A stretch of 34,636 nt of DNA from an uncultured Deferribacteraceae bacterium (GTDB lineage: Bacteria > Chrysiogenota > Deferribacteres > Deferribacterales > Mucispirillaceae), in contig CAMRCY010000023.1 in the NCBI GenBank assembly GCA_947041165.1, positions 1 to 34,636 of the forward strand, written 5' to 3'. The stretch's first letter is position 1; each line of letters starts with the position of its first letter. This document shows, piece by piece, positions 11,453 to 32,811 of this stretch. Made by a program: the position numbers and the translations under genes. The notes under the pieces are model-generated. The model was not told where the DNA came from. It saw nothing but the letters and a program-made list of their open reading frames with translations, and made no database searches.

Positions 11453-12365
11453 TCTATCATATTCACAAGACAGTCGAATAAAATATAAGTATAAAGTAGT
11501 TATTGAGAACAACGAATCTAAAGTTGTCACCAACATGCACGTATATGCATACACTGAAGACGAGGCAAAATCTGAGGTCGAGTTAAATGGTTGGACGGTA
11601 ATATTTATCAATAAGGTAGAGAGTGATTTAATTAATCAAGACTCATTTGTTGAGGATAGTACAGACCTATTAAAAAGTTATACAGTGCCCGATAAGATCG
11701 TTATCAGATCTCCTATTGAGGATTATATAATAGACAACGAAACGCAAACTGGCGATAAAGTTGAACAATTAATTGTTGGTACACCTCCTCTTGATAATAT
11801 AACAATAGCTGATAATACTACAGATAAGCCGAAAGATAACAGCAGTTATCTGAATGAACTATACGATGGACCTATGATTGATCCATTCTCAGGTTCTGTA
11901 TCGGATAATAGTAGTTTATCTGATAATAGCAGTGTAGCTGATAATGGTTTAATGGATAATGGTTCTGATTTTGCATCAACTAATGATTTTACACCAACAA
12001 ACGATAACCTTAAACTTGTTTCAAAATCATTTAATAATCTAGGTGTTATCAAACCTAATGGAATTATTGAAGGTGTTGATTTTAGTAAGTTAGATAATCA
12101 GAAGCAGTATGTGATTTTTGGGTTTTCAGATGAAGTTCCTGTAACGAGTAATTCACGATACAGAAACAATTTTGATCTTTCATTAAAGCGTGCAAAATTT
12201 ATTCAAGAGAAACTGTTATCATTAGGTTTTAAATCTGAAAACATAAAATTTTATGGATTAGGAACAATGTATCCAGTAGTAAAAAGTGATGGTAATCTAA
12301 GTGACTTAGAACCTATGTCAGAAAATAGAAGGGTTGAAATTTATGAGTTTAGAAGAGTCAAGTAA
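11361..12365 (+). CDS. Exported protein with C-terminal OmpA/MotB-type peptidoglycan-binding domain
   Basis: The C-terminal 90 residues match the OmpA-C fold: the core includes DLSLKRAKFIQEKL, a G-L-G-T motif, and ENRRVEIYEF near the end, the pattern that binds peptidoglycan diaminopimelate. A hydrophobic signal segment lies at about residues 16-33 with no lipobox cysteine. The middle (about 80-225) is acidic and disordered, with Ser/Asp/Asn repeats such as SDNSSLSDNSSVADNG. Start choice is uncertain: ATG 11361 has GAGGGA just upstream, while ATG 11406 would begin directly at a compact signal peptide. Either start overlaps the previous gene. It is not MotB, since no motor plug region is present. 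The 3' end overlaps the next gene by 23 bases. Confidence 0.75.
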   Translation: MVLLTQKMTISYYIKMFLSLFLINLIIGGVDLSYSQDSRIKYKYKVVIENNESKVVTNMHVYAYTEDEAKSEVELNGWTVIFINKVESDLINQDSFVEDSTDLLKSYTVPDKIVIRSPIEDYIIDNETQTGDKVEQLIVGTPPLDNITIADNTTDKPKDNSSYLNELYDGPMIDPFSGSVSDNSSLSDNSSVADNGLMDNGSDFASTNDFTPTNDNLKLVSKSFNNLGVIKPNGIIEGVDFSKLDNQKQYVIFGFSDEVPVTSNSRYRNNFDLSLKRAKFIQEKLLSLGFKSENIKFYGLGTMYPVVKSDGNLSDLEPMSENRRVEIYEFRRVK

Positions 12366-13314
12366 GTTTGAAGAACTTCAGAATATAAAATTAGTACAAC
12401 TTTATGAATTTGTCACAGAGGTTGTTCATGATTTTGGATATACACTTCATAAGACGTTAAAAGATCATGAAGTGCGTAGAAGAATTGAGCTATGGTCAAA
12501 CCAGAGTAAAGATAATGAATTAGCACTTGTTTGGATTGAGATTGTAAAACCTGGCGAAATTATGGATTCATATACTCCAACAGATGTTCTTCGCACGATG
12601 AATGACGAAAACATTACACATCTTTTCTTTTTCACAAATATGAATTTACCAGCAGAGATTAGAGAAGTGCTTGAAGGTATGGATAACCATATTTTCGATA
12701 TGAACGAAATCTCAGAAAACTTAATAGCGATAGATAATCGACGTCTAGTTAATATAGCAAGAAAAAGAAAAATTGTACGCATTCCATCAGGCGTTGGTCT
12801 TATCAAAAATTTCATGAAAAATAATTTAGATGCTAGAAAAGAGATTAAGCTTAAAGTATCTGCAGCACCAGAGTTAACAAATCAATATCTACGTGTTATT
12901 CGTAAAATTTTAGATGAAGTAGATGCGATAGAAGATATCAACAATCTAAGTTCAAGTGCTAAAGAGAGATTGAAGTTAGCACAATACGAACTTCTTCCTG
13001 AATTAGTTAAAATTCCTAACTTTATATTTACACGACAATTTACACACCTAAGAAATACTATTTTCACTCTTGTGGAATATCTGGTAATATATTTAGGTAA
13101 TGTGCTGGAGTATGAATCAGAAGATTCGATGAAAAAGAATAGAGATGTAATAGAAGAGATAGTTGAGCGTCTTGAATATGTTGGACAGCAGGTAATGACA
13201 TATAAAGAAGATATGATGTTAAGTTCAGAGAAGCTATCGTTAAAGATATTAATTTCATCGGGTATTTTTTGTTTATTATTTCTTCTTATATTAATTGTGG
13301 TAAAGTACAGTTAA
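12343..13314 (+). CDS. Unknown protein with C-terminal membrane anchor
   Basis: The 323-residue product has one clear transmembrane helix at the extreme C-terminus (about 300-320), so it would be a tail-anchored protein with its bulk in the cytoplasm. The N-terminal part (about 20-130) alternates strands and helices, including ELALVWIEIVK and THLFFFTN. This faintly recalls Mrr/PD-(D/E)xK nuclease-like folds, but a full catalytic D...E-x-K set is not clear, so no activity is assigned. The rest is mainly helical with probable coiled coil. The start is ATG 12343, with AGAAGGG upstream; an in-frame TTG at 12334 is less likely. It overlaps the OmpA-domain gene and lies 32 bases before the phosphatase gene. 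Confidence 0.7.
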   Translation: MSLEESSKFEELQNIKLVQLYEFVTEVVHDFGYTLHKTLKDHEVRRRIELWSNQSKDNELALVWIEIVKPGEIMDSYTPTDVLRTMNDENITHLFFFTNMNLPAEIREVLEGMDNHIFDMNEISENLIAIDNRRLVNIARKRKIVRIPSGVGLIKNFMKNNLDARKEIKLKVSAAPELTNQYLRVIRKILDEVDAIEDINNLSSSAKERLKLAQYELLPELVKIPNFIFTRQFTHLRNTIFTLVEYLVIYLGNVLEYESEDSMKKNRDVIEEIVERLEYVGQQVMTYKEDMMLSSEKLSLKILISSGIFCLLFLLILIVVKYS

Positions 13315-13346: not shown

Positions 13347-14888
13347 TTGATAGATGAGTTTAAAACATCCTTATTTAAAATAGATAATGATTTCAAAATA
13401 GTATTTGCTAGTGATAGTTTATCTATTTTTCTTGGTATATCAATTAAAGATATAATTGGTAAGAGTTGTTACTCCTTATTAAACCAATATAGTTCTCCGT
13501 GTAAGTTTTGTCCAATCGTCGGCAATAAATTTGAATTAAAGTATTATTATGAGCTTGTATCTGATAACGGTAATTACGGTTATTTTGTTGCAAACATTAC
13601 AAAGTCAGAGGATAAGTATCTGATATCTATGTTAGATATGACAGAGATGCGAGCATATAATCGAATAAATAAACATCAGATCAAAGAGCAAGAAGCGGTT
13701 ATCTCAAGGTTAAAAAACGAATTAAATTTTAATAAACGTAAACTGGCTTTTTTTGAACGATCGTTAGATAACTCTCAAGCAGGCGCGATGTTTGTGGATA
13801 GAGATTATAACATAATTCATATTAACCTGAAGTTACGAAAACTAATTTCTTTAGAAATTGTTGTTGTTAATTCAAAGTGTTATAATATTTATGGTTATGA
13901 CTCACCATGTCATTTCTGTCCTTGGACGAATGTAGGCAAGGAGCGACAAGCAAAAGTTATCGGAGATATCTCGGTTGTAATAGAGTTTACACGTATGGAT
14001 CATTACATCCTTGAAATATTTAGAGATGTCACAAAAGATTTATCATATATAAAATCTATAAAAGAGAATCAGCTATTGTTGATTGATAAGCAAAGACAGA
14101 TGGAGATTTTGAATATTGATCTCATTGAAACAAACGATAAGTTAAAAGTTATTCAAGGTGCAATGGATGATGAGTTAAAGCGAGTAGGATATATTCAAAG
14201 CAGTTTACTTCCTAAAAATAACCCAGAGATTGATGGGTATGATTTTGGAGTTGTCTTTATATCGACAAAATATGCAAGTGGAGATTACTACGATTTTATC
14301 GATGCGAGTGAAGGTAATTTAGGAATAGTTTTAGCTGATGTTTCAGGACATGGCACTCCAGCTGCAGTAATCATGGCGATGACAAGAGCTATTATGCGAT
14401 CATACACCTTAGGTGTAACATCATCAAGCAGTGTGTTATCGATGGTGAATGAAGTTTTATGTGACAATATTTATACAAAAGATTTTGTTACTATGTTTTA
14501 TTTGGTTTTAAATATAGAAAATGATACTATAAATTATTCATCAGCGGGGCATCATCCGGTACTATTTTATGATGCTTCAGAGTTCATGGTGAAGAAGCTT
14601 AATGTCAGTGGTTTACTGCTAGGAATATTTAAAGAGCAGGAATACGAGGAAAAAGTCTTGACATTAGACACAGGAGATATATTATTTCTGTATACCGATG
14701 GTTTGGTAGAGGTGATTAATAAACATGATGAGCAGTACGGTTATGATCGATTACTGTCAAAAATCATTATGTATTCATCACTGCGTCCTCAAGATATGAT
14801 TAATGAGATCATGCAGGATGTAAAAGATTTTACAAGCTTAGAGAGTTATAGAGATGATATAACTATAGTAGCGATGAAAAAGGGATAA
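13347..14888 (+). CDS. PAS-PAS-SpoIIE (RsbU/RsbP-type) serine phosphatase with Cys motifs
   Basis: This is a PPM/SpoIIE-family phosphatase, expected to dephosphorylate a STAS-domain protein in a partner-switching pathway. Two PAS domains (about 1-105 and 135-230) each carry a cysteine cluster: C41, C52, C55 and C178, C188, C191, of the form C-Y-x(8-9)-P-C-x-F-C-P. A coiled coil (about 235-285) connects to the phosphatase domain (about 285-513). That domain has the expected metal-site acidic residues D313 (SGDYYD), D331 (ADVSGHG), D451 (YTDG) and D503/D504. The start is TTG 13347, with AAGGA 8 bases upstream; no later start keeps PAS 1 intact. The cognate STAS gene follows 23 bases downstream. 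The signal sensed by the Cys-PAS domains is unknown; metal, iron-sulfur or redox are possibilities. Confidence 0.9.
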   Translation: MIDEFKTSLFKIDNDFKIVFASDSLSIFLGISIKDIIGKSCYSLLNQYSSPCKFCPIVGNKFELKYYYELVSDNGNYGYFVANITKSEDKYLISMLDMTEMRAYNRINKHQIKEQEAVISRLKNELNFNKRKLAFFERSLDNSQAGAMFVDRDYNIIHINLKLRKLISLEIVVVNSKCYNIYGYDSPCHFCPWTNVGKERQAKVIGDISVVIEFTRMDHYILEIFRDVTKDLSYIKSIKENQLLLIDKQRQMEILNIDLIETNDKLKVIQGAMDDELKRVGYIQSSLLPKNNPEIDGYDFGVVFISTKYASGDYYDFIDASEGNLGIVLADVSGHGTPAAVIMAMTRAIMRSYTLGVTSSSSVLSMVNEVLCDNIYTKDFVTMFYLVLNIENDTINYSSAGHHPVLFYDASEFMVKKLNVSGLLLGIFKEQEYEEKVLTLDTGDILFLYTDGLVEVINKHDEQYGYDRLLSKIIMYSSLRPQDMINEIMQDVKDFTSLESYRDDITIVAMKKG

Positions 14889-14911: not shown

Positions 14912-15235
14912 ATGGAGATGAATATTAAAGAATCGAGTAAAGGTTTTATAATTTATCCTACTGGAGATATTGATATAAAAAGCAGTCCGATGCTTAAAAG
15001 TAAAGTGCTAGAGTTATCAGATAGAGGATCAGTGGTATTATCTCTTAAACATGTACATTACATTAACAGTTCTGGTTTGAGAGAGATTGTTGATTTATTT
15101 AAGATATTAAAAGAAAGTGATAAAGAGTTACGACTTTGTGAGATGTCTGTTGATATGAAAGAGCTTTTTTCATTCACAGGTTTGAGTAAGGTTTTTAAAA
15201 TATTTGATAGCGAAAAAGATGCACTAGGTAGTTAG
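14912..15235 (+). CDS. STAS-domain anti-sigma factor antagonist
   Basis: The 107-residue protein is a single STAS domain of the SpoIIAA/RsbV type. The phospho-site loop reads YINSSGLREI at 50-59, so S53 or S54 is the likely serine, with Asn where Asp is usual in SpoIIAA. In partner switching, the unphosphorylated form binds an anti-sigma kinase and frees its target. The adjacent SpoIIE phosphatase is the natural activator. No HATPase anti-sigma kinase is encoded nearby. GCGGAGGC lies 8 bases before ATG 14912; a second ATG at 14918 is possible. The gene ends the block that began with cheA. Confidence 0.92.
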   Translation: MEMNIKESSKGFIIYPTGDIDIKSSPMLKSKVLELSDRGSVVLSLKHVHYINSSGLREIVDLFKILKESDKELRLCEMSVDMKELFSFTGLSKVFKIFDSEKDALGS

Positions 15236-15904
15236 TTTTAATTAATAAGGAATATTTTATTATTAGTAATGTTGAATGTTTTGATTATCGTATATAGAGA
15301 GTGGTAAAGTATTTTAGATAATTTGAATGTTGATAAATTTTATTTCTTACACAATACGACGATAATATTAGCACTACTTATGTATGTTGTTTTTTGTATT
15401 AGAAAGTTGTTTAGAAAATGCCGAAAATTTTAATTATAAATTAAGAAATAATAAATTTATTTTGCTTTATAAAATCATCAGCACGTTTAGTTTTTGATAA
15501 AACAAGACTTGTTTCATCTTAAATAATCCATAATTTTTAAATTAATTAAAAATTGTTATTTAATTAATCATAATATTAATATAGTAAATTGAGGGTTTTT
15601 ATTAACTTTTTTAATGTTAATATAGATTTTTTTAGAAACTATCTATATGATATAAGTTAAGATATATGTAAATTATTAATATGTTTAATGGCTAGCGGTT
15701 ATGCGTTACCTTGAAGTATATTCTTTTATCAGATATAGTTATAAAAATACCTTAGTAAAATGTAAGGTATATCGTTATGGGTATGATCAGATTTATATAG
15801 TTACATGAACGACATTTTGTCAATTTTTACAAAGCTAGCGATAATGGATGTTTTAGATGAGTACGTTATGTTTTTGTTCAGAGAGATATTAAAGAGGATT
15901 AGTA
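15236..15904. other. Long AT-rich intergenic region with inverted repeats
   Basis: This 669-base gap between the STAS gene and cheR has no plausible gene on either strand. A perfect inverted repeat at 15747-15770 has 8-base arms (ATACCTTA/TAAGGTAT) and an 8-base loop, which could be an operator or an RNA hairpin. A second at 15542-15567 has perfect 9-base arms but consists only of A and T, so it carries little weight. The heptamer GCTAGCG occurs near 15691 and 15833. No convincing sigma-28 or sigma-54 promoter was found. Confidence 0.45.
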
Positions 15905-19232: not shown

Positions 19233-21371
19233 ATGTTATTCCACTTTATTAAACTTGTTTATACTCAAATTTTAATTCTTATTTTTCTTTTCACATCCAA
19301 CTTTTTATTCGCTCAAGAGATTGCTACGTCAGATAATCTAACTAGTGGTGATAAATCATCTAATTCATCAAACTTAACATCAACTAATAACCGTGATAAA
19401 GACGATAATAAATCATCTATTTCGTCAAACTTAACATCAACTAATAATCGTGATAAAGACGATAATAAATCATCTAATTCATCAAACTTAACATCAACTA
19501 ATAACCGTGATAAAAATGATGATAAAACGAATGGTGCATCTGATGAAAGTAGTGTTAATGAAATTCTTGTAACTGGAAGCAGATTGTCATCACAAGCATC
19601 GGTTGATATGCCAGGTGTAAATATTATCACATCGGATGATATCGAAAATATTCAGCCAACGTCAGTTACATCGTTATTAAGAACATTGCCGTCAGTTAGT
19701 ATCACAGAGTACGGAGCAGGTAAAGCATCAACGATTAGATTACGAGGCGCATTATCGGAACATACATTAGTTATGGTTGATGGAGTTATCGTAAATGATC
19801 CAACAAATATCGGCAATGTTGCAGATTTATCAACACTATCGCTTGAGGATATTGAGAGGGTTGAGGTTATATCGGATTCTGTTTCATCAGTAGGTTTTGG
19901 AGGCATGGGTGGAGTCGTTAATATTGTTACAAAGAAGGGTGACGGCAAATTATCTGCAACTGTGCATTTAGATACATCTGTGTTCCTTGACGAATTTAAT
20001 GGTGGTGCATCGATTGGTGCTGGTAACGATAATTTCAGTTATAAAGTATCTTACTCTAAACTTTATGTTGATGCGATGAGTGTGTTAACAAATACAGCTA
20101 ACGATAATGATCCTGAGATAGATGCTACAAGTCGTGATAATGTTGTGATAAAAATTGCCTTTCAACCTATACAACATTTTAAAAATGAGTTCGTATTAAA
20201 TTATGTAGATATGTTTGCAGATATAGATGGTGGTGGATCTCCTAACGGTGACAATCCAGAATTTACACAAGGATCAAATCGAGTTGCCACAAAATATACC
20301 ACAAGTTACCTTATCAAGGATATGTTTGAACCTAAGTTATCGTTTTATTATACATACAACCAACGAGAATATAGGGATTCATTTTCAAACTCAAGTTTTG
20401 TGTTTAGGAATAACGATTATATTTCTCATTCAGCTGGTGTTGATTTTGAGACGAATATTAAAATCAAAAAGTTGTTTAAAATTTTAGTTGGAACGAGTTA
20501 TCAATTTAATATGATGGATTTACGAACAGAAGAATCGGTATTTTCAGCTGGTAACGAAGTTTACGATGAAAGGCTAGATATTGATGGAAAAATATTATCA
20601 CGGTTCTCTGTTTTCAGTGAAGCACAAGCTTATCTATTTGATTCTTTAACATTAAAATTATCAGGCAGAGTTGACAACAGTGGTGGTTCAGATTTTTTTG
20701 GCACATATAAGGTTTCGGCTTTATACAACTTAAAATATCTTAGAACTAAATTTAGAGGTACAGTTGGAACAGGTTACAATCCTGCATCTTTGTTTCAGTT
20801 ATTTGATCCTATATATGGCAACAGAGGTTTAGAGGATGAAAAATCTTTCGGCTATCAAGTAGGTGTTTTGTCAGAGATTGTGAAAGAGATATTATTTTTG
20901 TCGATAGATTTTTATGATAACTACTATAAGAATTTAATTGATGGATCGTCAGGTGTATATGAGAATGCTGGTGATGTTCGGATTTATGGAGTTGAGGTTG
21001 CAGGAGAGTATTATCCAATAGATACTATAGCAATCAAGTTAGGTTATGTATATAGTTTTCCGTATGATAAATCTAAGCAGAAAGAGATGTTGCGTGTTCC
21101 AAATAATAAAGTTACTGGTTCATTTTTCTGGGAGATAATTTCAGGTTTACATGTCGGTGCTGAAATCGCATATGTTGGTGAAAGATATGATTCTGGATAT
21201 ATTATTTTAGATGATTATTTTTTATTAAATCTTAATGCAAGATATAAGTTGAATGATAATATAGAGTTAATTCTTAAAGGAACAAATGTAACAAATGCAG
21301 ATTATGAAGAAGCGTTGGGTTATGAAAGTTATGGTGCTAGAGTTTATTTTGGAGCTAAGTTTAAAATTTAA
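19233..21371 (+). CDS. btuB: TonB-dependent outer-membrane cobalamin receptor BtuB
   Basis: The 712-residue protein has a signal peptide (cleavage near A27), a low-complexity stretch, a TonB box EILVTG at 110-115, a plug domain (about 124-235) with TIRLRG and MVDGV, and a 22-strand-type beta-barrel to the C-terminus. The assignment to cobalamin rests on the riboswitch just upstream and the btuFCD genes downstream. The segment at 47-98 contains three copies of a 19-residue unit beginning NLTSTNNRDK, rich in Ser, Asn and Asp, which places the TonB box unusually far from the mature N-terminus. A strong ribosome-binding site, AGGGAGGGGG, precedes ATG 19233. Confidence 0.92.
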   Translation: MLFHFIKLVYTQILILIFLFTSNFLFAQEIATSDNLTSGDKSSNSSNLTSTNNRDKDDNKSSISSNLTSTNNRDKDDNKSSNSSNLTSTNNRDKNDDKTNGASDESSVNEILVTGSRLSSQASVDMPGVNIITSDDIENIQPTSVTSLLRTLPSVSITEYGAGKASTIRLRGALSEHTLVMVDGVIVNDPTNIGNVADLSTLSLEDIERVEVISDSVSSVGFGGMGGVVNIVTKKGDGKLSATVHLDTSVFLDEFNGGASIGAGNDNFSYKVSYSKLYVDAMSVLTNTANDNDPEIDATSRDNVVIKIAFQPIQHFKNEFVLNYVDMFADIDGGGSPNGDNPEFTQGSNRVATKYTTSYLIKDMFEPKLSFYYTYNQREYRDSFSNSSFVFRNNDYISHSAGVDFETNIKIKKLFKILVGTSYQFNMMDLRTEESVFSAGNEVYDERLDIDGKILSRFSVFSEAQAYLFDSLTLKLSGRVDNSGGSDFFGTYKVSALYNLKYLRTKFRGTVGTGYNPASLFQLFDPIYGNRGLEDEKSFGYQVGVLSEIVKEILFLSIDFYDNYYKNLIDGSSGVYENAGDVRIYGVEVAGEYYPIDTIAIKLGYVYSFPYDKSKQKEMLRVPNNKVTGSFFWEIISGLHVGAEIAYVGERYDSGYIILDDYFLLNLNARYKLNDNIELILKGTNVTNADYEEALGYESYGARVYFGAKFKI
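19371..19526 (+). repeat. 57-bp in-frame tandem repeat within btuB
   Basis: Units start at 19371, 19428 and 19485, each beginning AACTTAACATCAACTAATAA; the third diverges at its end. The 57-base period encodes 19 residues, so copy-number change would keep the frame. It lengthens the spacer between the signal peptide and the TonB box of the receptor. Confidence 0.9.
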
Positions 21372-21440
21372 CAAAGCTTCAATCAAGTTGCATCAGATTA
21401 TTAGATATGAAAGTGTACGCAATATATATGGGGATATCGT

Positions 21441-22103
21441 ATGTTGACTAGAGGTTTAGTTTTATCAAGTGTAGTATCATTAATGCTCCATACTGGTGTG
21501 CTTGTGACGTATACAAATTTAACTGCTGATAAGTTGGGAGATAATGTGAATGACATTATCGAGATAACTTTTGTTGCAAAAGAGAGTAGTGTTGCTGACA
21601 GTATCAAAACTAAAAAAAGTGTAGCTGTTAAAAAGAAGAGTAAAAAAATAAATGAAAATATAGATCACGAAATTGATAAAAAAGAAGTTAGCGAGATCCC
21701 TAAAGAAGTTGTAAAAAAAGAACTGATAGAGAAACAAGAAGATGAAAAGTTAGTTGAACAGTTAAATGAAAGTTTAGATAAAGCAGAGCCTAGTGAGGAT
21801 ATTTCTAACAGTATTGATAGCCAGCAAGCATCTAAGGATTCGGTAATAAAAAAAAGTGACAAAGGATATTATATACCAAAACCTGAGTATCCAAATCTTG
21901 CACGCAAACGAAGTTACGAGGGTGTAAGTAAATTTAGAATTATTCTTAATGATAATTTAGAGGTGAAAGAAGTAATATTGCTTTCATCATCTGGGTATAA
22001 TATTTTAGATAGAGCAGCTAGAAAATCAATTGAGAACGGAAAGTATAATGTCGATAAAAAAGAGTTAGAGATAGCGATAAGGTTTAGTTTAGATGATTTA
22101 TAA
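21441..22103 (+). CDS. tonB: TonB-family energy transducer
   Basis: TonB passes inner-membrane proton-motive energy to outer-membrane receptors. The 220-residue protein has an N-terminal membrane anchor (about 5-25), a long charged Lys/Glu linker (about 50-140) in place of the usual Pro-rich spacer, and a C-terminal TonB domain. The latter shows PEYPNLARKRSYEG followed by F-R-I-I-L-N-D-N-L and S-S-G-Y-N-I-L-D-R-A-A. GGGGAT lies about 6 bases before ATG 21441. Its place directly after btuB suggests a transducer dedicated to B12 uptake. ExbB and ExbD are not in the window. Confidence 0.9.
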   Translation: MLTRGLVLSSVVSLMLHTGVLVTYTNLTADKLGDNVNDIIEITFVAKESSVADSIKTKKSVAVKKKSKKINENIDHEIDKKEVSEIPKEVVKKELIEKQEDEKLVEQLNESLDKAEPSEDISNSIDSQQASKDSVIKKSDKGYYIPKPEYPNLARKRSYEGVSKFRIILNDNLEVKEVILLSSSGYNILDRAARKSIENGKYNVDKKELEIAIRFSLDDL

Positions 22104-22133
22104 AAGTTTAAATATTTTATGTGTTGGTGTTAT

Positions 22134-23054
22134 ATGAGTATTAGAAAAAACAAGTTAAGAAGTTTTTTAAAAGCTACAATTATAATTTTATTAATATTGT
22201 TATCGACATTTTTTTTATATTTGTTTTTAAACAGTTATGGGTTATTAAAAAATATATCGAACACTCGTGATAGTGCGATTGGTTCTGAACGAATAGTATC
22301 TTTTGGGCCAAGCATAACAGAAACAGTTTATGCGTTAGGATTAGAAGATAGACTTGTTGGCAATACCGATTACTGCAAATATCCTGAGGCTGCAAAATCT
22401 ATCACAAAGATCGGTGCACATGCAGATATGAATTATGAGCTTTTAATGGCGTTAAATGTGGATAAGGCTATTGTATATTCGTGGAATGATAAACATAAAT
22501 CTGTGTTAGAAAATTTAGGTATTAAATATTTGGTAGTAGATCATTCATCTATCAAAAGTATTATGCAATCTATCACTGATATAGGAAGTGAGTTTGGTAA
22601 GGACGCAGAAGCTAAGCTACTTTTAGATAATATTACAAGACGAGTTGAAGTTGCAACTTGTGATAATAAAAGTTATAAACCGAGGGTGTTACTTGTTGTG
22701 CATAGGGATATCGATTTTGGTGGAATGTCTAATATAACGGTTGTAGGTAGCGATATCTATTTTAGAGATTTAATTGATTTAGCGGGTGGTATAAATGTTT
22801 TTGGAGAGGCGAATGCTGCGTATCCGATCATAGATATGGAAGCTGTAGTTAGATCTAATCCAGATATAATTATAGAGATTCTTGTGAAATATAATGAGAA
22901 AGATTTATCTCTTAAAAATTGGTTAAAGGTACAAGATATAAATGCTGTAAAGAACGGTGCGGTACATTTTTTTAATGTTGAAGATGCATCAATACCAGGT
23001 CCAAGATTTGTAGATACATTAGAAAAGATGACATCAATAATTTGTTCTAGATAG
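22134..23054 (+). CDS. btuF: Cobalamin ABC transporter substrate-binding protein BtuF
   Basis: This is a periplasmic binding protein of the BtuF/FhuD class that hands corrinoid to the BtuCD importer. An N-terminal hydrophobic helix (about 14-32) serves as signal or membrane anchor; there is no lipobox Cys. The opening of lobe 1 reads ERIVSFGPSITETVYALGL, characteristic of this family, and the two lobes are joined by a long helix. ATG 22134 is chosen over the in-frame ATG 22119 because it gives a normal basic n-region, and no ribosome-binding site precedes 22119. The gene belongs to the riboswitch-controlled operon. Confidence 0.9.
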   Translation: MSIRKNKLRSFLKATIIILLILLSTFFLYLFLNSYGLLKNISNTRDSAIGSERIVSFGPSITETVYALGLEDRLVGNTDYCKYPEAAKSITKIGAHADMNYELLMALNVDKAIVYSWNDKHKSVLENLGIKYLVVDHSSIKSIMQSITDIGSEFGKDAEAKLLLDNITRRVEVATCDNKSYKPRVLLVVHRDIDFGGMSNITVVGSDIYFRDLIDLAGGINVFGEANAAYPIIDMEAVVRSNPDIIIEILVKYNEKDLSLKNWLKVQDINAVKNGAVHFFNVEDASIPGPRFVDTLEKMTSIICSR

Positions 23055-23073
23055 TGTTGGAGATAAAAAGTTT

Positions 23074-23838
23074 ATGTTAGAGATAAAAAATATAGGTTAC
23101 AGCGTCGGTGAGAAGGAGATCATTAAAGATATTTCTTTCTCAGTTAACGATGGCGATATTGTATCGATCATAGGTGCAAATGGTTCTGGCAAATCTACTC
23201 TTATGAAAGTTATATCAAATATGATAAAGGCTAAAAGTGGCGAGGTTATTTTATTTAATAAACGAGTGATAGATTATAAACGTATTGATATCGCAAAAGT
23301 GATGTCATATCTTTCACAGATCAATGATGTGTTTATAAACTTAACGGTTGAGAGTGTTGTGTTGTCAGGCAGGTATCCATATTTTTCAAGATTAAGTTCG
23401 GTTAAGAAAATAGATATGGATATTGTAGAGAAGATGATGGATCTAACAAATATAACGGATATGCGTTATAGAAAAATATCATCATTAAGTGGTGGTGAAA
23501 GACAGAGAGTTTTTATAGCATCATCTCTAGCACAAGAAGCTAAAATAATTTTACTTGATGAGCCTACAGTATATTTAGATCCACGAAGCAATCAAGAAAT
23601 TTTTGATCTGCTTAAACGGTTGAATAAAGATGAGGGAATAACTATTGTGATTGTTAGTCACGATATAAATAATTTATTATTACTAAACTCTAGGTTTATC
23701 GGTTTACGAAATGGAGAAATTCTTTTTAAGAGAGAAAGCAATCAGATTACGGATAAAGATTTGAATGATCTTTATGAGTATAAATTCAACTATGTACATC
23801 ATCCGAAAGCAATAAACAATATCCAACTTTTACCTTGA
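23074..23838 (+). CDS. btuD: Cobalamin ABC transporter ATPase BtuD
   Basis: This is the 254-residue ATP-binding subunit of the cobalamin importer. Walker A GANGSGKST is at 34-42, the Q-loop Gln at 82, signature LSGGERQR at 138-145, Walker B IILLDEP at 158-164 with E163, and the switch His at 196. These match the BtuD/FecE/FhuC family. A GGAG lies about 11 bases before ATG 23074. Family alone would also permit a siderophore ATPase; the operon and riboswitch point to cobalamin. Confidence 0.92.
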   Translation: MLEIKNIGYSVGEKEIIKDISFSVNDGDIVSIIGANGSGKSTLMKVISNMIKAKSGEVILFNKRVIDYKRIDIAKVMSYLSQINDVFINLTVESVVLSGRYPYFSRLSSVKKIDMDIVEKMMDLTNITDMRYRKISSLSGGERQRVFIASSLAQEAKIILLDEPTVYLDPRSNQEIFDLLKRLNKDEGITIVIVSHDINNLLLLNSRFIGLRNGEILFKRESNQITDKDLNDLYEYKFNYVHHPKAINNIQLLP

Positions 23839-23905
23839 TGGTTTTGTTAGTTTTAGTTATAGATCAGTTGATTGAAAATAATTAGTAGAGAGAATAAATT
23901 AAATT

Positions 23906-24880
23906 ATGCGATTATATATTACCATTTTATTAACCTTAATCATATCTGTATCGATTTTATTATCAGCAGTTTTTATAGGTTCAGATTATAGTTCGTTGGT
24001 AGATAAAATAACTTCAGAACAGTTAAGAAGCATAATTATCAACGTCCGTTTACCGAGAGTAATCGCCTCATTTTTTATAGGTGGAATTTTAGCGTTAGGT
24101 GGTTTAGTTTTTCAATCGTTATTTAGAAACCCACTTGCAACGCCGTATACTTTAGGTTCAGCATCAGGAGCATCATTCGGTGCAGCACTTTATTATGCAT
24201 TGGGCATGAGTTCTATTTTTCCAACTTTATATGGTGCTCCGATATTCACATTTTTAGGAGCATTTTTAACGGTTATAGTTGTGAGTTTAGTATCAAGGGC
24301 GTCACGAGATAATAATATTGTATTGTTGATGGGTGTTGCGTTATCGTTTATATTTTCAAGTTTAATAATGTTTATACAATATGTTACAGATCTTCACCTG
24401 TCGCAACAGTTACTACGTTTCACATTTGGAGCGATGGACGGGATAACATATTCACATTTAATTTTATTATTTCCAGTCTGTGCGATCACGTTTTTTATTA
24501 TTGTATCATTTAGACGAGAGATAAATATGATATCAATATCAGATGAGTTCGCATCAAGCAGAGGAGTGAATGTTGATAATATTAAAATCACATTATATAT
24601 AGTTGTGTCAATTATGATAGGCACGGTGGTATCAATTGCAGGTCCTATAGGATTTGTAGGAATGATGATCCCACATATAATGCGAAGTTTTTTAGGATCA
24701 GACAGTAAATATTTTATTTATATGACGTTCATTGTTGGTGGATTATTTTTAACGATATGCGATACGGTATCGAGGATAATTATTTCACCGATACAACTAC
24801 CAGTGGGAATTGTCACATCAATGATCGGAGGAACATTTTTTATATTTCTACTAATCAATAATATCAGAAGATCTAATTGA
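23906..24880 (+). CDS. btuC: Cobalamin ABC transporter permease BtuC (FecCD family)
   Basis: This is the 324-residue polytopic inner-membrane permease of the FecCD family, with about nine to ten transmembrane helices. Typical sequences include RLPRVIASFFIGGILALGG near residues 48-66, FRNPLATPYTLG and GPIGFVGMMIPHIMR, the latter part of the coupling region contacting BtuD. The ribosome-binding site is weak (GAGAG, distant). It is the last gene of the B12 operon, 67 bases after btuD. Confidence 0.93.
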   Translation: MRLYITILLTLIISVSILLSAVFIGSDYSSLVDKITSEQLRSIIINVRLPRVIASFFIGGILALGGLVFQSLFRNPLATPYTLGSASGASFGAALYYALGMSSIFPTLYGAPIFTFLGAFLTVIVVSLVSRASRDNNIVLLMGVALSFIFSSLIMFIQYVTDLHLSQQLLRFTFGAMDGITYSHLILLFPVCAITFFIIVSFRREINMISISDEFASSRGVNVDNIKITLYIVVSIMIGTVVSIAGPIGFVGMMIPHIMRSFLGSDSKYFIYMTFIVGGLFLTICDTVSRIIISPIQLPVGIVTSMIGGTFFIFLLINNIRRSN

Positions 24881-27046: not shown

Positions 27047-27094
27047 ATGCACAGGAATTTTATAGATGATAAATATCGGAGGCACATATGGTAG
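27047..27094 (+). CDS. Possible 15-residue leader peptide before the hydrogenase operon
   Basis: ATG 27047, preceded by AGGAG at 27038-27042, opens a frame of 15 codons (MHRNFIDDKYRRHIW) ending with TAG at 27092-27094, which overlaps the first codons of the small-subunit gene. Its codons run straight through the CGGAGG ribosome-binding site of that gene. The overlap could couple translation, or the frame may be chance. The rest of the gap, 26896-27046, is AT-rich with a TATAAT at 27009-27014 that lacks a convincing -35. Confidence 0.25.
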   Translation: MHRNFIDDKYRRHIW

Positions 27095-28191
27095 AAAGGA
27101 GTTTATTAACCCCTAACCTGTCGAGAAGAGATTTTGTTAAAGCATTAGGTACAATTACTACGGCACTTGGTTTGCCGATGACAATGGCAACGGACGCAGC
27201 AGAGGCGGCATCAAATGTTGATAATCGTCCGCCAGTTATATGGTTACATTTTCAAGAGTGTACAGGTTGTACTGAGGCTGTATTAAAGGCAACTCATCCA
27301 TCACCAGCAGAGTTAATCTTAGAGTTAGTTAATTTATGTTATCAAGAGTCATTGATGGCAGATTTTGGACATGGCGCAGAGGAATTATTAGAGAAAGCAA
27401 TGAAGAAGTATGCTGGAAAGTATATTTTAATAATTGAAGGCTCTATTCCTTTAAAAGATAATGGTGTTTACTGTAAGATAGGTGGCAAGACAGCTATTGA
27501 TATCTTAAAACATGTATCAGCATCAGCAGCAGCTGTTATCAATTTAGGTATTTGTGCAACATCAGGTGGTATTGCTTCTGCTGGATCAAATCCAACAGGT
27601 GCAGTTGGAGCTCCAGAGCTTCTTCCAGAGGGTATTCCATATATATCATTACCAGGTTGTCCTCCAAATCCATATAACTTATTGGGAGTAATAATGTATT
27701 TACTCAACTTTAATAAGTTACCAGATATGGATTCTAAGAAGAGACCATTATTTGCATACGGCACATTAATACATGAATATTGTGAACGTAGAGCACATTT
27801 TGATGCAGGAAGATTTGCAAAAGAATTTGGTGATGAAGGTCATAGAAACGGTTTTTGTTTATATAAATTAGGCTGTAAAGGTCCAGAGACTCATGCAAAC
27901 TGTTCAGCTATTAAATTTAATGAAGGTATCGTTTGGCCAATAGGTAACGGTAATCCTTGTATCGGTTGTACTGAGGGTGATGTTCTATTTAAGGAGAGTC
28001 TATTTACTTATGCTAAGGTTGCACAACCAAGACTTAGCTCTAATGTTCCTCCAGCACAGCAAGAAGATTTAGGTGATAGAGCTACAGCATCACAAGGTGT
28101 TTTAGTTGGAGCTATTATCGGTGCAGCAGTTGGTGCTGGTGCAGTTTACGCATCTAAGCTATCTAAGGAGCCTGAGGATGAAAACAAGTAG
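27088..28191 (+). CDS. hybO: [NiFe] uptake hydrogenase small subunit (HybO-like)
   Basis: This subunit relays electrons through three iron-sulfur clusters from the large-subunit active site. A Tat signal with SRRDFVK (residues 12-18) exports the folded dimer. Likely proximal-cluster ligands are C58, C61, C155 and C190; distal H228, C231, C256 and C262; medial C271, C290 and C293. A C-terminal hydrophobic helix (about 340-360) anchors it in the membrane. The 367-residue length and Tat plus anchor layout fit Hyd-2/group-1 membrane-bound hydrogenases. CGGAGG lies 6 bases before ATG 27088. The 3' end overlaps the next gene by 14 bases. Confidence 0.95.
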   Translation: MVERSLLTPNLSRRDFVKALGTITTALGLPMTMATDAAEAASNVDNRPPVIWLHFQECTGCTEAVLKATHPSPAELILELVNLCYQESLMADFGHGAEELLEKAMKKYAGKYILIIEGSIPLKDNGVYCKIGGKTAIDILKHVSASAAAVINLGICATSGGIASAGSNPTGAVGAPELLPEGIPYISLPGCPPNPYNLLGVIMYLLNFNKLPDMDSKKRPLFAYGTLIHEYCERRAHFDAGRFAKEFGDEGHRNGFCLYKLGCKGPETHANCSAIKFNEGIVWPIGNGNPCIGCTEGDVLFKESLFTYAKVAQPRLSSNVPPAQQEDLGDRATASQGVLVGAIIGAAVGAGAVYASKLSKEPEDENK

Positions 28192-29326
28192 AAGAGAATT
28201 TATAAAAGTTGGAACAGCCGCTGTATTAGGAGCTGCAACAGTTACGACTGTTGGGGTTAAGGATGCAGAAGCTGCTGCGAAGAGGGAGTTTTCTCCTGAA
28301 GCTGTAGGTATGTTTTATGACTCTACGAAGTGTATCGGGTGTCAAGCATGCGTTATCAGTTGTTATGAGATCAATTTTCTTAATAAAGAATCATATGTAA
28401 ATAATGTTATAGCTCCTGAGGATCAGAACTTTATTGTAAGAGAGGATTTAATTCCGAAACTTGCACCTGGTGATCAATTTAATCCAGATAGACCGTGGTT
28501 AAATGTTGAAACAAACGACTATAGATTTAGAAATATTATACAGAAATATGTTGATCCAGAAGATAAGGTACATTTTATCAAACATCAGTGTATGCATTGT
28601 AATCATCCTGAGTGTGTATCGGTTTGTCCAGTTGCAGCTTTAACTAAAGATCCAGTTGATGGCGTTGTTGAATACAATGCATCATATTGTATCGGTTGCA
28701 GATATTGTCAATTGGCTTGTCCATTCTTGATACCTAAATATGAGTGGAAGAGAGCTGTTCCTAAAATTGTTAAATGTGATATGTGTAAATCAACACTTGG
28801 AGCTAATGGTATAGCTGGTACTGGTTGTACAAATGTTTGTCCAACGGGTGCTGTTATTTACGGTAAGCGTGTTGATCTTATGAAAGATGCGAAAAGTCGT
28901 ATATCAAACAATCCTGGAAAATATTTTGCAGACAAAGTTTATGGTGAGCATGATAACGGTGGAACAGATGTTATATACTTATCAGCAGTAGATTTTAAAT
29001 ATCTAGGTTTTGATGAAAGAATTCAAGATTATTCATACGCAGAAGTTTCTGAAAAACTTCACCATACAATATATACATTAGGTATCGCTCCGATCGGTTT
29101 ATTTCTTACATTAGCAGTTGTAGGTTACATTAACGGTAAGAGAAATGCACATGATTCATTTGAAGGCGTTGAGTTTGAAGATGAATATGTAGAAGATATA
29201 AAAGCTAAAGATAAAAAATCTAGCGGTATAAAAGCTACTGATGCAAAAGCTACTGATGCAAAAGCTACTGATGCAAAAGCGAAAGAAGTAAAGGCTAAAG
29301 ATGAAAAAGATAAGGGGGGCGAATAA
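28178..29326 (+). CDS. hybA: Tat-exported ferredoxin-type hydrogenase subunit (HybA-like, four [4Fe-4S])
   Basis: This subunit passes electrons from the small subunit to the membrane partner. It has a Tat signal (SRREFIK at 4-10) and sixteen cysteines in four ferredoxin sets: 52, 55, 58, 62; 138, 141, 146, 150; 171, 174, 177, 181; and 200, 203, 217, 221. A C-terminal transmembrane helix (about 315-335) follows, then a Lys/Ala/Asp tail containing KATDA repeats. ATG 28178, with AAGGAG upstream, is preferred over an upstream in-frame start at 28106, because it begins directly at the Tat signal. The product has 382 residues. The tail is longer and more repetitive than usual for HybA. Confidence 0.93.
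   Translation: MKTSRREFIKVGTAAVLGAATVTTVGVKDAEAAAKREFSPEAVGMFYDSTKCIGCQACVISCYEINFLNKESYVNNVIAPEDQNFIVREDLIPKLAPGDQFNPDRPWLNVETNDYRFRNIIQKYVDPEDKVHFIKHQCMHCNHPECVSVCPVAALTKDPVDGVVEYNASYCIGCRYCQLACPFLIPKYEWKRAVPKIVKCDMCKSTLGANGIAGTGCTNVCPTGAVIYGKRVDLMKDAKSRISNNPGKYFADKVYGEHDNGGTDVIYLSAVDFKYLGFDERIQDYSYAEVSEKLHHTIYTLGIAPIGLFLTLAVVGYINGKRNAHDSFEGVEFEDEYVEDIKAKDKKSSGIKATDAKATDAKATDAKAKEVKAKDEKDKGGE
29231..29280 (+). repeat. 15-bp in-frame repeat encoding KATDA units
   Basis: The unit AAAGCTACTGATGC recurs at 29231, 29246 and 29261 with a strict 15-base period, encoding KATDA three times in the cytoplasmic or periplasmic tail of the ferredoxin subunit. Neighbouring KAKD/KAKE codons look like older diverged copies. 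Confidence 0.9.
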
Positions 29327-30526
29327 ATGGCTGTACATCACCATGAATATATAATTCGTAGAGGTAATATTTTCACTCCAACATTTTATATAACCACTGC
29401 ACTAATCATTTTAGCTGTGTTAATCGTTATGTATAGATACTGGATGGGTATGGGTTACATCACAAATATGAGTGATGGATATCCTTGGGGAACATGGAAA
29501 TCGGTAAACGTTTCGTTAGGTGCTGCGTTTGCTTGTGGCGGATATGTTCTTGCGATACTTGTTTACATATTTAATAAATATAAGTATCACCATATGGTAA
29601 GATCTGGTGTTTTAGTATCTATGTTTGGATACTCACTAGCTGGTCTTGCTGTAATGATTGATATCGGTAGACCGTGGAATGCGATATACTTTTTTGTTCC
29701 AAGCAACTGGCAGTTGAACTCGGCATTATTTGAAGTAGCGTTATGTGTTATGGCTTATACTGGTGTAACTATGTTAGAGTTTTTACCAGCTGTTTTTGAG
29801 CGTACATCGCTGATTGAAAAGTATCCACGTTTCTCTGCGTTCTCTAAAAAGTGGTATCATGTTCTTGAGAAAATCACATTTTTAATAATTGCAATAGGTG
29901 TAACATTACCTTCAATGCACCAATCATCACTTGGAACAATGTTGATCTCAACAGGGCATAAGTTACATCCTTTATGGCAGTCAAACTTTATACCATTATT
30001 ATTTTTAATAACAGCATTTATAATGGGTATTGCGTCGATTATTCTTGTATCTATGTTAACATCAAAATTATTACATAGACCATTTGAAAAGAGTATATAC
30101 GGGATTTCTAAATTAATTCCTTATGCAACAATTACGTGGATAGTTGTTAGAGTGATATCGTTAACGACATCAGGTGCGTGGGGATATTTATTTACATCAG
30201 GCTTAAACTCTGTATTTGTTATCTTAGAATTTTTAACAATAGGTATACCTGCGTATATTATTCTTGCTACAAAACTTGGTAAAAGTAAGCGTGGAGTATT
30301 TATTTGTTCTTGTCTAATGATTGCAGGTGTATGCTTATATCGTCTAGGAGTTTACTTACTAGGTTTTAATGTTGAAGCTGGTTGGAACAGATATTTTCCA
30401 AGTTTTGGAGAAACGCTTACAACAACTGCATTACTGCTAGTGATATTATGGGGTTACGTAATTCTTATAAAATTAGTACCTGTACTTCCTAACCTTAATG
30501 TTAAAGGCGACCCTAGAAAAGATTAA
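29327..30526 (+). CDS. hybB: Hydrogenase integral membrane subunit (HybB/NrfD family)
   Basis: This 399-residue polytopic protein with about ten transmembrane helices belongs to the HybB branch of the NrfD family. It contains YPWGTW at 52-57, a conserved feature near the quinone side. Its role is to link the periplasmic electron-transfer chain to the quinone pool. The start ATG directly follows the TAA of the ferredoxin gene (TAAATG), with AAGGGGGG as ribosome-binding site. No heme-ligating cytochrome subunit is encoded, consistent with a Hyd-2-like rather than HyaC-type complex. Confidence 0.93.
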   Translation: MAVHHHEYIIRRGNIFTPTFYITTALIILAVLIVMYRYWMGMGYITNMSDGYPWGTWKSVNVSLGAAFACGGYVLAILVYIFNKYKYHHMVRSGVLVSMFGYSLAGLAVMIDIGRPWNAIYFFVPSNWQLNSALFEVALCVMAYTGVTMLEFLPAVFERTSLIEKYPRFSAFSKKWYHVLEKITFLIIAIGVTLPSMHQSSLGTMLISTGHKLHPLWQSNFIPLLFLITAFIMGIASIILVSMLTSKLLHRPFEKSIYGISKLIPYATITWIVVRVISLTTSGAWGYLFTSGLNSVFVILEFLTIGIPAYIILATKLGKSKRGVFICSCLMIAGVCLYRLGVYLLGFNVEAGWNRYFPSFGETLTTTALLLVILWGYVILIKLVPVLPNLNVKGDPRKD

Positions 30527-30578
30527 TTTACAGTATATATATAATTGATATAAAGATATAAAATAGGAGATAATTAAA

Positions 30579-32255
30579 ATGGCGAAGAGAATTACCATAG
30601 ATCCAATCACAAGGATAGAAGGTCATCTTAGAATAGATGTGCAGATAAATGATAACAATGTAGTTGATGATTCTTGGTCATCAGTACAGATGTTTAGAGG
30701 AATAGAAACAATATTAAGAGGATCAGATCCTGCGTCAGCATGGTCACTTGCTCAAAGATTTTGTGGAGTTTGTACGACTACACATGCATTAGGTTCTATC
30801 CGTTGTGTTGAGGATGCTTTAAATGTTGAGATCCCTTTCAACGCACAGATGTTAAGAAATCTTGTTTTAACAATTCAATCTTTACAAGATCACATTGTGC
30901 ATTTCTATCATCTAACTGCTCTTGACTGGATAGATATAGTTTCAGCTACTAAGGCTGATCCTGTAAAAGCTGGAAAAATTGCTGAAGGATTATCAGGTTG
31001 GCCAAAAAACTCGGTTAACGATATGAAAGAAGCTAAAGATAAATTAACTGCTTTTGTAAGTACTGGAAATTTAGGTATCTACAGTGCAGGATATTGGGGA
31101 CATGAAGACATGCGTTTATCTCCAGAGATAAATTTAATGGCTTTCTCACATTATCTTCAAGCATTAGATGCTCAAAGACAAGCGGCTCAAGCGGTTGCTA
31201 TAATCGGTGGTAAAAATCCTCATATTCAAAATCTTTGTGTAGGTGGAGTTTCAACTCAACTTAACATGGATGGATATACAGGTTTAAATATTGAGAAATT
31301 AGATTGGTTAGGCGATATTATTGGCACAGTTGATAAGTTTATTAATCAAGTATATGTACCAGATGTTTTAGCGATCGGTGGAATATATAAAGATTGGTTT
31401 AACATGGGTAAAGCTTCACCTAACTATATATCTACTCCTGATATCCCACTTGATGGCAAGGCTACTAAGTTTGCTATTAAAGGTGGAGTTATTATAGGGA
31501 AATCTGTAAGAGAGTTTAAAGATTGGAAAGATACAGATCTTCGTTCAAAAATAACAGAAACATCTAAACATGCTTGGTATGAAGAGAATGATCCTCTTCA
31601 TCCATATGTTGGTGAGCAGACTCCTAACTATACTGATTTTGAAGATGATGGTAAATACACATGGTGTAAAGCACCACGTTATGATGGCAATGTAACTCAA
31701 ACAGGTCCTATTGCTCAGATTATGGTAAACTATAAATTAGGTCATGCATCAACTGTAAAATATGTTGATTATGTTAGATCTAAATTAGGTTTAACTGTTG
31801 ATCAGTTGAACTCAACTATGGGACGTAACGCTGCAAGAGCTATCAAAACTCTTGTAATGGTTGATTATACTAAAGAGTGTTATCAATTATTAATAGATAA
31901 TTATGCAAGTGGAGATACTGCGTATAACAATCCTACAACGATCCCAGCTGGTGAATATAAAGGTGTTGGTTTCAATGAAGCACCTCGAGGAATGTTATCA
32001 CATTGGGTTGTTATTAAAGATAAACTGATTACAAATTATGAGGCTGTTGTTCCATCAACTTGGGTGGCATCACCTAGAGATAATGAGAATAAGAAAGGTC
32101 CTTATGAGGAATCATTAATGAATCTTAAAGTTGCTGATGCAAAAAATCCTTTAGAGATTGTTAGAACAATACATTCATTTGATCCTTGTATTGCATGTGC
32201 AGTACATACTGTTGATCCAGATGGTGTTGAGTTTGTTAAAGTTAAAGTAAGATAG
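30579..32255 (+). CDS. hybC: [NiFe] uptake hydrogenase large subunit (HybC-like)
   Basis: This catalytic subunit splits H2 at a Ni-Fe(CN)2CO centre. The four nickel-ligand cysteines are C62 and C65 in RFCGVCTTTH, and C537 and C540 in DPCIACAVH. RIEGH at 12-16 is the usual N-terminal motif. The 15 residues after H543 form the C-terminal extension expected to be removed by the maturation protease encoded next. The 558-residue length is typical. AGGAGA lies about 10 bases before ATG 30579. It has no signal peptide and is presumably co-exported with the Tat-bearing small subunit. Confidence 0.96.
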   Translation: MAKRITIDPITRIEGHLRIDVQINDNNVVDDSWSSVQMFRGIETILRGSDPASAWSLAQRFCGVCTTTHALGSIRCVEDALNVEIPFNAQMLRNLVLTIQSLQDHIVHFYHLTALDWIDIVSATKADPVKAGKIAEGLSGWPKNSVNDMKEAKDKLTAFVSTGNLGIYSAGYWGHEDMRLSPEINLMAFSHYLQALDAQRQAAQAVAIIGGKNPHIQNLCVGGVSTQLNMDGYTGLNIEKLDWLGDIIGTVDKFINQVYVPDVLAIGGIYKDWFNMGKASPNYISTPDIPLDGKATKFAIKGGVIIGKSVREFKDWKDTDLRSKITETSKHAWYEENDPLHPYVGEQTPNYTDFEDDGKYTWCKAPRYDGNVTQTGPIAQIMVNYKLGHASTVKYVDYVRSKLGLTVDQLNSTMGRNAARAIKTLVMVDYTKECYQLLIDNYASGDTAYNNPTTIPAGEYKGVGFNEAPRGMLSHWVVIKDKLITNYEAVVPSTWVASPRDNENKKGPYEESLMNLKVADAKNPLEIVRTIHSFDPCIACAVHTVDPDGVEFVKVKVR

Positions 32256-32297
32256 TAAGTTATTAATCTAATTTACATTTTGTGATTATAATATTAT

Positions 32298-32325
32298 GGG
32301 GAGATTTAGATCTCCTCATTTTATT
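32298..32325 (+). terminator. Terminator-like hairpin between large subunit and protease genes
   Basis: Arms GGGGAGAT (32298-32305) and ATCTCCTC (32310-32317) pair with one G-U wobble around a TTAG loop, followed by ATTTTATT. It lies 42 bases after the large-subunit stop and ahead of the protease start at 32347. It may cause partial termination, giving less protease mRNA than structural-gene mRNA, or stabilise the upstream message. Confidence 0.5.
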
Positions 32326-32346
32326 ATCTATTTTAAGGAGTTCAAG

Positions 32347-32811
32347 TTGAAGAAGATAGTAGTTATGGGTATAGGCAATTATATTTTTACTGATGAAGGT
32401 ATCGGTGTTCATGCGATAATGGAGTTAGAGAAATTAAAGTTACCAGAAAATGTTGAACTAGTTGATTGTGGAACAGCGAGTATGTTTACAAACAGTCATA
32501 TTGCAGATGCAGATATATTAATTGCAATAGATGCAATAGCTTCAGATAAAGAGCCAGGTGCAATAGTTGTGTATGATAAAGAAGATATCATGCTTTCAAG
32601 AGTTCCTATGAAAATCTCACCACATCAGATAGGTTTCCAAGAAACATTATTGCATGCAAGACTTAGAGGAGATATTCCTGATATAGTTAAACTAGTTGGA
32701 GTTGTGCCAAAATCACTTGATGCATCAATAGTTTTAACTGATGAGTGTCAAAAATCTTTACCTGAAGTTGTGAAAATAGTTTTAGATTTTATAGAAGAGT
32801 TTAACAAATAA
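32347..32811 (+). CDS. hybD: Hydrogenase maturation endopeptidase (HybD-like)
   Basis: This protease cleaves the C-terminal extension of the nickel-loaded large subunit. With TTG 32347 as start, the 154-residue protein has E17, D62 and H93, matching the nickel-sensing residues of the HybD family, and the opening VVMGIGN. TTG is chosen because TAAGGAG (32334-32340) lies 6 bases upstream and the family starts here. A longer frame from ATG 32296 would begin inside the terminator-like hairpin and add 17 unneeded residues. It closes the hydrogenase operon; hypABCDEF are not present. Confidence 0.93.
   Translation: MKKIVVMGIGNYIFTDEGIGVHAIMELEKLKLPENVELVDCGTASMFTNSHIADADILIAIDAIASDKEPGAIVVYDKEDIMLSRVPMKISPHQIGFQETLLHARLRGDIPDIVKLVGVVPKSLDASIVLTDECQKSLPEVVKIVLDFIEEFNK

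Follow-up and report, generated by a model that had tools for sequence, protein, structure and literature searches.

The phosphatase gene at the centre of this analysis lies in the window (the whole 34 636-nucleotide stretch of DNA that was analysed) and encodes a protein with two PAS domains, each of which carries a triad of cysteines. We propose, with a probability of roughly 0.55, that the two triads are ligand sites that control how a cytoplasmic, RsbU/RsbP-like sensor phosphatase acts on a neighbouring STAS protein. In the proposed scheme, Cys1 at the start of a short helix and Cys2 and Cys3 in the loop leading into the next helix would form, in each PAS domain, one three-thiolate ligand set. 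The most likely occupant of the site would be an Fe–S cluster, a Zn-type metal ion being the alternative; the fourth ligand may be non-protein or variable. Were the cofactor lost, oxidized or changed, the PAS dimer and the coiled-coil linkers would be altered and the dimeric PPM domain switched, which would determine whether the STAS protein is phosphorylated. The STAS protein would in turn engage in partner switching, perhaps with an unlinked RsbW-like kinase, and thereby act on motility/chemotaxis or on a sigma factor.

Domain architecture of the sensor phosphatase

The features of the gene, its product and the downstream neighbour are collected in Table 1. Pfam places PAS_9 at residues 9–99 (E value 4.5e-8, 33.7 bits against a cut-off of 27) and SpoIIE (PF07228) at residues 322–511 (165.9 bits against a cut-off of 25), while PAS_8 and PAS_4 cover residues 135–194 of PAS2, both under their cut-offs. 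The Asp residues of the GD, ADVSGHG, TDG and DD motifs, which we take to be metal ligands, are invariant in the rows with letters at those positions (42 to 44 of 45 orthologues), and at the sequence level the catalytic motifs of the phosphatase are intact. An AlphaFold2 model of residues 1–262, calculated with 40 aligned N-terminal sequences, has a mean pLDDT of 85 and displays the order PAS1, helix 99–141, PAS2, helix 229–261; its pTM of 0.49 is low, so that the relative placement of PAS1 and PAS2 is untrustworthy. The matches listed by Foldseek and VIA-align are PAS-containing proteins, those of VIA-align mostly over residues 1–127. PDB PAS structures match the model with Z up to 13.3, with FixL, LOV and PYP structures among the best. 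PAS1 thus scores above its profile cut-off, and PAS2 is PAS-like by the secondary structure of the model; PAS2 also matches profile A3 (described below), by construction, since the window is one of its rows. No match to residues 1–262 was found among plasmid records.

Table 1. Positions in the window of the phosphatase gene, its parts and the adjacent STAS gene
Feature	Positions	Strand	Description	Evidence
Sensor phosphatase ORF	13347..14888	+	513 aa, TTG start; PAS1-coiled coil-PAS2-coiled coil-PPM (SpoIIE/RsbU type)	Pfam and orthologue alignment
PAS1, residues 1–108	13347..13670	+		Pfam PAS_9; PAS topology in AlphaFold2 model; PDB PAS matches
PAS1 cysteine triad	13467..13511	+	C41, C52, C55 (C-x10-C-x2-C)	Orthologue conservation
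Long helix 99–141	13641..13769	+	PAS1-to-PAS2 joint	Model secondary structure
PAS2, residues 128–240	13728..14066	+		Sub-cut-off Pfam PAS_8/PAS_4; PAS-like strands/helices in model; aligns with PAS1
PAS2 cysteine triad	13878..13919	+	C178, C188, C191 (C-x9-C-x2-C)	Orthologue conservation
Helix 229–261	14031..14129	+	PAS2-to-PPM linker, up to about the end of the modelled part	Model secondary structure
SpoIIE/PPM phosphatase domain	14310..14879	+	GDYYD, ADVSGHG, YTDG and DD motifs	Pfam 1.3e-48; Asp conservation
STAS anti-anti-sigma-type protein	14912..15235	+	Presumed substrate; N-S-S-G phosphosite motif	Pfam STAS 1.5e-17; TIGR00377 1.3e-20

An earlier note on this DNA had assigned a STAS output to the phosphatase itself. 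This is not borne out: the STAS domain belongs to the separate next gene, and the output is presumably the PPM phosphatase, acting on that neighbouring protein. The arrangement resembles RsbP (the Bacillus subtilis PAS-coiled coil-PPM protein) and RsbU in its N-terminal sensor, helical linker, C-terminal PPM domain and STAS (RsbV-like) partner, which is encoded next door here. RsbP differs in having one PAS domain, whereas the protein in the window has two Cys3-PAS domains and its gene sits in a chemotaxis/flagellar cluster. No RsbQ-like hydrolase was found among the nine window proteins scanned with Pfam, two of which had no match of any kind. According to PMC12143880, helical (coiled-coil) linkers switch RsbU by dimerizing its PPM domains, and RsbP and other PPM phosphatases are predicted to be controlled likewise.

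The triad in orthologues and in other sensor proteins

The motifs read C41-Y-x8-P-C52-K-F-C55-P56 in PAS1 and C178-Y-x7-P-C188-H-F-C191-P192 in PAS2. The translated ORF therefore confirms the earlier note in that both PAS domains share one three-cysteine signature, C-Y-x(8-9)-P-C-x-F-C-P at 41–56 and 178–192, with its motif and positions correct and its spacing in need of correction to x(7-8); searched as DNA across the whole genome, the x(8-9) pattern matches PAS1 only. The Phe within the CxxC is found, among orthologues, only in the four rows of the genus of the window. Lack of conservation among orthologues had been named in advance as one of two results that would tell against the proposal, and the six cysteines turn out to be near-invariant in 45 rows. 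Where aligned, C41 and C52 are each present in 43 of 43 orthologues, C55 in 44 of 44, C178 in 44 of 45, and C188 and C191 in all 45. The sole substitution is C178S in L059 (from a genome that is 75% complete), and otherwise there are just gaps in truncated rows. This conservation rules out a chance motif.

An N-terminal alignment (A1) of 40 of the 45 orthologues, excluding the truncated or broken L048, L050, L054, L055 and L059, has 18 invariant columns, six of which are the triads. When 24 PAS1 and 24 PAS2 domains from 24 of these 40 taxa were aligned jointly (A2, 48 domains), the invariant columns were the three cysteines and D97 only, the latter belonging to the D-x-T ending common to PAS domains. 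A further invariant Cys or His that could serve as a fourth ligand is absent from the 40-row, the joint and the wider motif-family alignment. C372 of the PPM domain is also Cys in 42 of 45 orthologues; no role is claimed for it. In a FastTree phylogeny with midpoint rooting, PAS1 and PAS2 of these proteins group together, apart from the PAS domains of other genomes, with a support of 0.99, and PAS2 alone forms a group with a support of 0.75. This suggests an old internal duplication, a reading of sequence that depends on short domains and on the rooting.

The triad is not confined to this protein. The pattern C[YH]-x(8-10)-P-C-x2-C-P, searched as DNA, has matches in 141 of 384 genomes, a count to be read with the matches of the reversed-pattern control and with the many listed matches at other lengths that are due to chance. 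Among 30 loci fetched from this search (L080–L109), 15 have the motif in an open frame of more than 60 aa; 14 of these are sensor-like and one (L106) is not. Nine motif proteins were scanned with Pfam, seven from these loci and two from the phylum of G055 (four genomes only, which yielded L067–L079). Eight of the nine contain histidine-kinase domains, the exception being L080, with only PAS domains in the stretch examined. A PAS model likewise matches eight (none in L098), although in L084 the best stretches lie away from the motif. L070 and L086 are tandem PAS-PAS kinases with the motif; they share both features with the protein in the window and differ in output, which is a histidine kinase there and a PPM phosphatase here. 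A profile (A3) of 21 Cys3-PAS domains, from which the duplicates L067, L071, L078, L079, L101 and L102 and the 143-aa frame L106 (not PAS-like) had been dropped, matches 309 of 384 genomes at an E value of 1e-4, ordinary PAS domains being included in the count. The best matches fetched comprise 95 ORFs with at least one domain carrying all three cysteines (CCC), 15 of them with adjacent tandem CCC domains, and the family consensus is GKKCYxxxxxRxxPCxxCP.

The motif observation is thus real in the aligned sequences and extends past this protein: the triad marks a PAS subtype that is also found in histidine kinases of other genomes, sometimes in tandem. The repetition of the motif is therefore no sign of a special design of this protein, and a special invention in it was rejected in view of the motif in sensor proteins of other genomes. 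Among the papers listed by searches of the open PMC library we saw none on the triad motif in PAS domains. The near-invariance of the triad and its recurrence in other sensors suggest a metal or Fe–S sensing site that is widespread and apparently undescribed. PAS domains are very common intracellular sensors. In a recent PAS survey, over 100 of the 163 large clusters had conserved cavity residues that are possible cofactor or ligand binders, and assignments exist for few; the survey also mentions a cysteine motif, putatively for Fe–S binding, that is shared by nine PAS domains within a single cluster, and cites NreB for it (PMC10468136). The Cys3-PAS subtype may be included in its clusters.

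Evidence for a proposed metal or Fe–S ligand set

A sample drawn blind to cysteine indicates that the three residues occur as a unit. Loci were collected via the PAS_4 family (PF08448) and 224 distinct domains were aligned to a profile with the triad columns masked. L214 and L217 (near known motif hits), L180–L184 and the 44 of 224 domains gapped at a triad column were left out. Of the 180 domains ungapped at the triad, eight have all three cysteines, two have two, seven have one and 163 have none. The marginal Cys counts are 10, 11 and 14, from which 0.05 CCC domains are expected under independence against the eight observed; three of the eight (L122, L132 and L133) belong to a single family within the same order, and two to one protein (L155). 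The PAS finder used for this and for the motif-family sample derives from triad-masked Cys-PAS domains and so leans towards that PAS neighbourhood.

When both samples were pooled and gapped rows dropped, the motif family comprised 117 CCC domains and 14 without the middle Cys. A His two residues after Cys3 is present in seven of these 14 compared with two of the 117 (Fisher p 1e-6), and a His five residues after Cys1 in 12 of the 14 compared with 31 of the 117 (p 2.5e-5). These counts are of sequences, not events, are uncorrected for relatedness and include several domains from the same genome or protein. The His comparison was devised once the family alignment had been inspected and is hence exploratory. 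The middle Cys is itself replaced by His in two of the 14, which are other members than the seven with His after Cys3; in nine of 14, loss of the middle Cys is therefore accompanied by a His, either at the vacated position or shortly after Cys3. The other five have neither, and some of them may have lost the cofactor. In the PAS domains of the window the residues five after Cys1 are Asn and Gly, so that a His at this position is not their fourth ligand. Seven members without the middle Cys (L275, L298, L313, L322, L326, L327 and L329) have C-P-H at the third position, possibly a Cys2-His form. The distance from Cys1 to Cys3 is 14 residues in 105 of the 117 CCC domains, 18 in ten, 15 in one and 26 in one, and in the 18-residue form the Cys2–Cys3 stretch is longer by four (C-x6-C). 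L278, L301, L308 and L318, of the C-x10-C-x6-C form, carry [ST]-H at positions +4 and +5 from the first Cys.

The near all-or-none triad and the Cys/His exchange would also be expected if a structural Zn with no sensory role steadied the short helix and loop in PAS domains of this subtype. This reading survives best among the alternatives and is nevertheless unlikely. According to PMC6624279, PAS-bound Zn has a precedent in WalK, where it is regulatory, and structural Zn sites are typically Cys4 or Cys2-His-Cys; only three ligands are conserved here. The likeness to the cytoplasmic PAS domain of WalK, with its regulatory Zn, lies in a PAS-bound metal, putative in the present case, that tunes an output domain.

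Somewhat less probable again is a thiol/disulfide or persulfide redox switch in which no metal is bound. The protein looks cytoplasmic, the C-x2-C form is that of the window and of most family members (the 14-residue spacing above), and an odd third Cys could be a resolving or modified thiol. The exchange of Cys for His and the extra His upon loss of Cys2, however, suit ligands better, as does the C-x6-C form compared with a dithiol, and the triad is near all-or-none. The near all-or-none triad, the Cys-to-His exchange, the apparent compensation by His and the C-x6-C form together argue for metal or Fe–S ligands over a CxxC switch. The earlier note had offered a metal, an Fe–S cluster or a thiol switch; the first two are likely and well motivated, if unproven, and the third is less so.

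The position of the triad within the fold is in keeping with a metal or Fe–S site. In the model C41 opens helix 41–46, C52 and C55 lie in the loop ahead of helix 56–59, and C178 opens helix 178–181, and profile alignments place Cys1 (C41) at the Cys position of the LOV protein YtvA (2pr5). PAS cofactors usually bind in the region of the fold that holds the YtvA-type Cys, which would put the triad in the usual PAS cofactor region. No solved structure with the triad is present among the alignments displayed (at most five per search) for PAS1 of the window, A2, A3, the motif piece of L087 and the PAS domain of L090. A pocket lined by the triad for a covalent or coordinated small ligand (a LOV-like flavin adduct or another cofactor), with Cys1 as the LOV equivalent, would fit this alignment and the FixL, LOV and PYP structures among the best matches, but is improbable, as the LOV N-C-R-F-L-Q signature is absent and a LOV site leaves Cys2 and Cys3 unexplained. 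The photoactive Cys of LOV domains sits in that signature; the domains of the window share the fold of YtvA and have two further conserved cysteines, and a LOV photoreceptor was rejected in view of the consensus given above.

Within the metal or Fe–S reading, we prefer Fe–S to Zn because of the precedent for three thiolates, the occurrence of the spacing inside Fe–S motifs (those having four cysteines) and a likely hydrogenase operon in the window. Ligation by three thiolates and a variable fourth ligand is well known for Fe–S clusters. The PAS domain of NreB binds [4Fe–4S] through four cysteines, whereas only three are invariant per PAS domain here, and an NreB-like Fe–S PAS was rejected on this count. 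C-x10-C-x2-C is contained in the 2Fe–2S motif C-C-x10-C-x2-C of FhuF (four cysteines; PMC8068687) and in the Fe–S motifs CX10CX2CX3C of rdhA (again four; PMC4918011), and a title cited in PMC10468136 describes NreB as a cysteine-bearing cytoplasmic PAS protein that senses oxygen via Fe–S.

Putative STAS partner, genomic setting and implications

In 42 of 45 orthologue loci the STAS gene is adjacent to the phosphatase gene and has the same orientation. Of the three exceptions, L055 retains a downstream STAS gene, its phosphatase frame being split in two; the phosphatase genes of L054 and L059 reach the contig end. The phosphosite of the 42 aligned STAS proteins is SSG in 39 and SAG in three, which are the three from outside the order; the N-S-A-G of these relatives makes canonical Ser phosphorylation doubtful in them. 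As judged from its motif, a putative STAS partner with a potentially phosphorylatable Ser lies beside the phosphatase, as in a partner-switching module. The genome has one HATPase_c_2 (RsbW-like) protein above the Pfam cut-off, unlinked to the phosphatase, and 43 of the order's 45 genomes (G000–G044) contain long matches to this kinase, with none in G012 and a short weak one in G014. FlgM is also encoded in the genome, and the partner of the STAS protein could be the RsbW-like kinase or FlgM. The RsbW-like protein (L065 1075–1911; G000 C11) has an extra N-terminal region of ∼110 aa that is conserved across the order. A second SpoIIE-type phosphatase of the genome (L002 511–2085; G000 C31; 524 aa) does not have the cysteine motif in its translation.

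The closest named relatives of the protein are from uncultured Deferribacteraceae MAGs (83–89% identity) and Mucispirillum MAGs (45–46%). Orthologues are found in 42 of 45 genomes of the order (G000–G044), the G013 copy being a fragment, with none in G016, G023 (both 99% complete) or G024 (88%). They are also found beyond the class in all three further genomes of the phylum (G047–G049), and in neither of two genomes of another order of the same class. The phosphatase gene sits inside a flagellar/chemotaxis cluster. In addition to the window, 16 loci have the full order cheA, small ORF, ompA-like gene, 326-aa gene, phosphatase, STAS and cheR; many of the others do not extend far enough to show it, and the three outside the order display phosphatase, STAS and cheR only. 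This position alone suggests motility as the regulated process.

Several other features of the window were observed. The 326-aa protein directly upstream (12334–13314) has no Pfam match and, by eye, an apparent C-terminal membrane helix; its gene is present in 35 of 45 orthologue loci, some of the remainder being too short. Between STAS and cheR, ∼670 bases (15236–15904) contain no plus-strand ORF of at least 60 aa. By eye, 19233–24880 resembles an ABC uptake set for iron or cobalamin together with TonB and a TonB-dependent receptor, and 27088–32811 is likely to be an [NiFe] hydrogenase operon (Tat small subunit, Fe–S protein, membrane subunit, large subunit and maturation protease).

More broadly, and more tentatively than for the protein itself, at somewhat less than even odds, we suggest that an unnamed and widespread Cys3-PAS subfamily, in which Cys and His can exchange and a C-x6-C form occurs, binds Fe–S or metal through its three cysteines and that it operates in histidine kinases and, in Deferribacterales and relatives, in a PPM–STAS switch of the chemotaxis cluster. 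A rule of C-x10-C-x2-C, C-x10-C-x6-C or C-x13-C-P-H would then predict metal or Fe–S sensing for many orphan kinases and phosphatases, and the Deferribacterales protein would be a convenient test case, as it has two sites and a phosphatase output that can be assayed directly.
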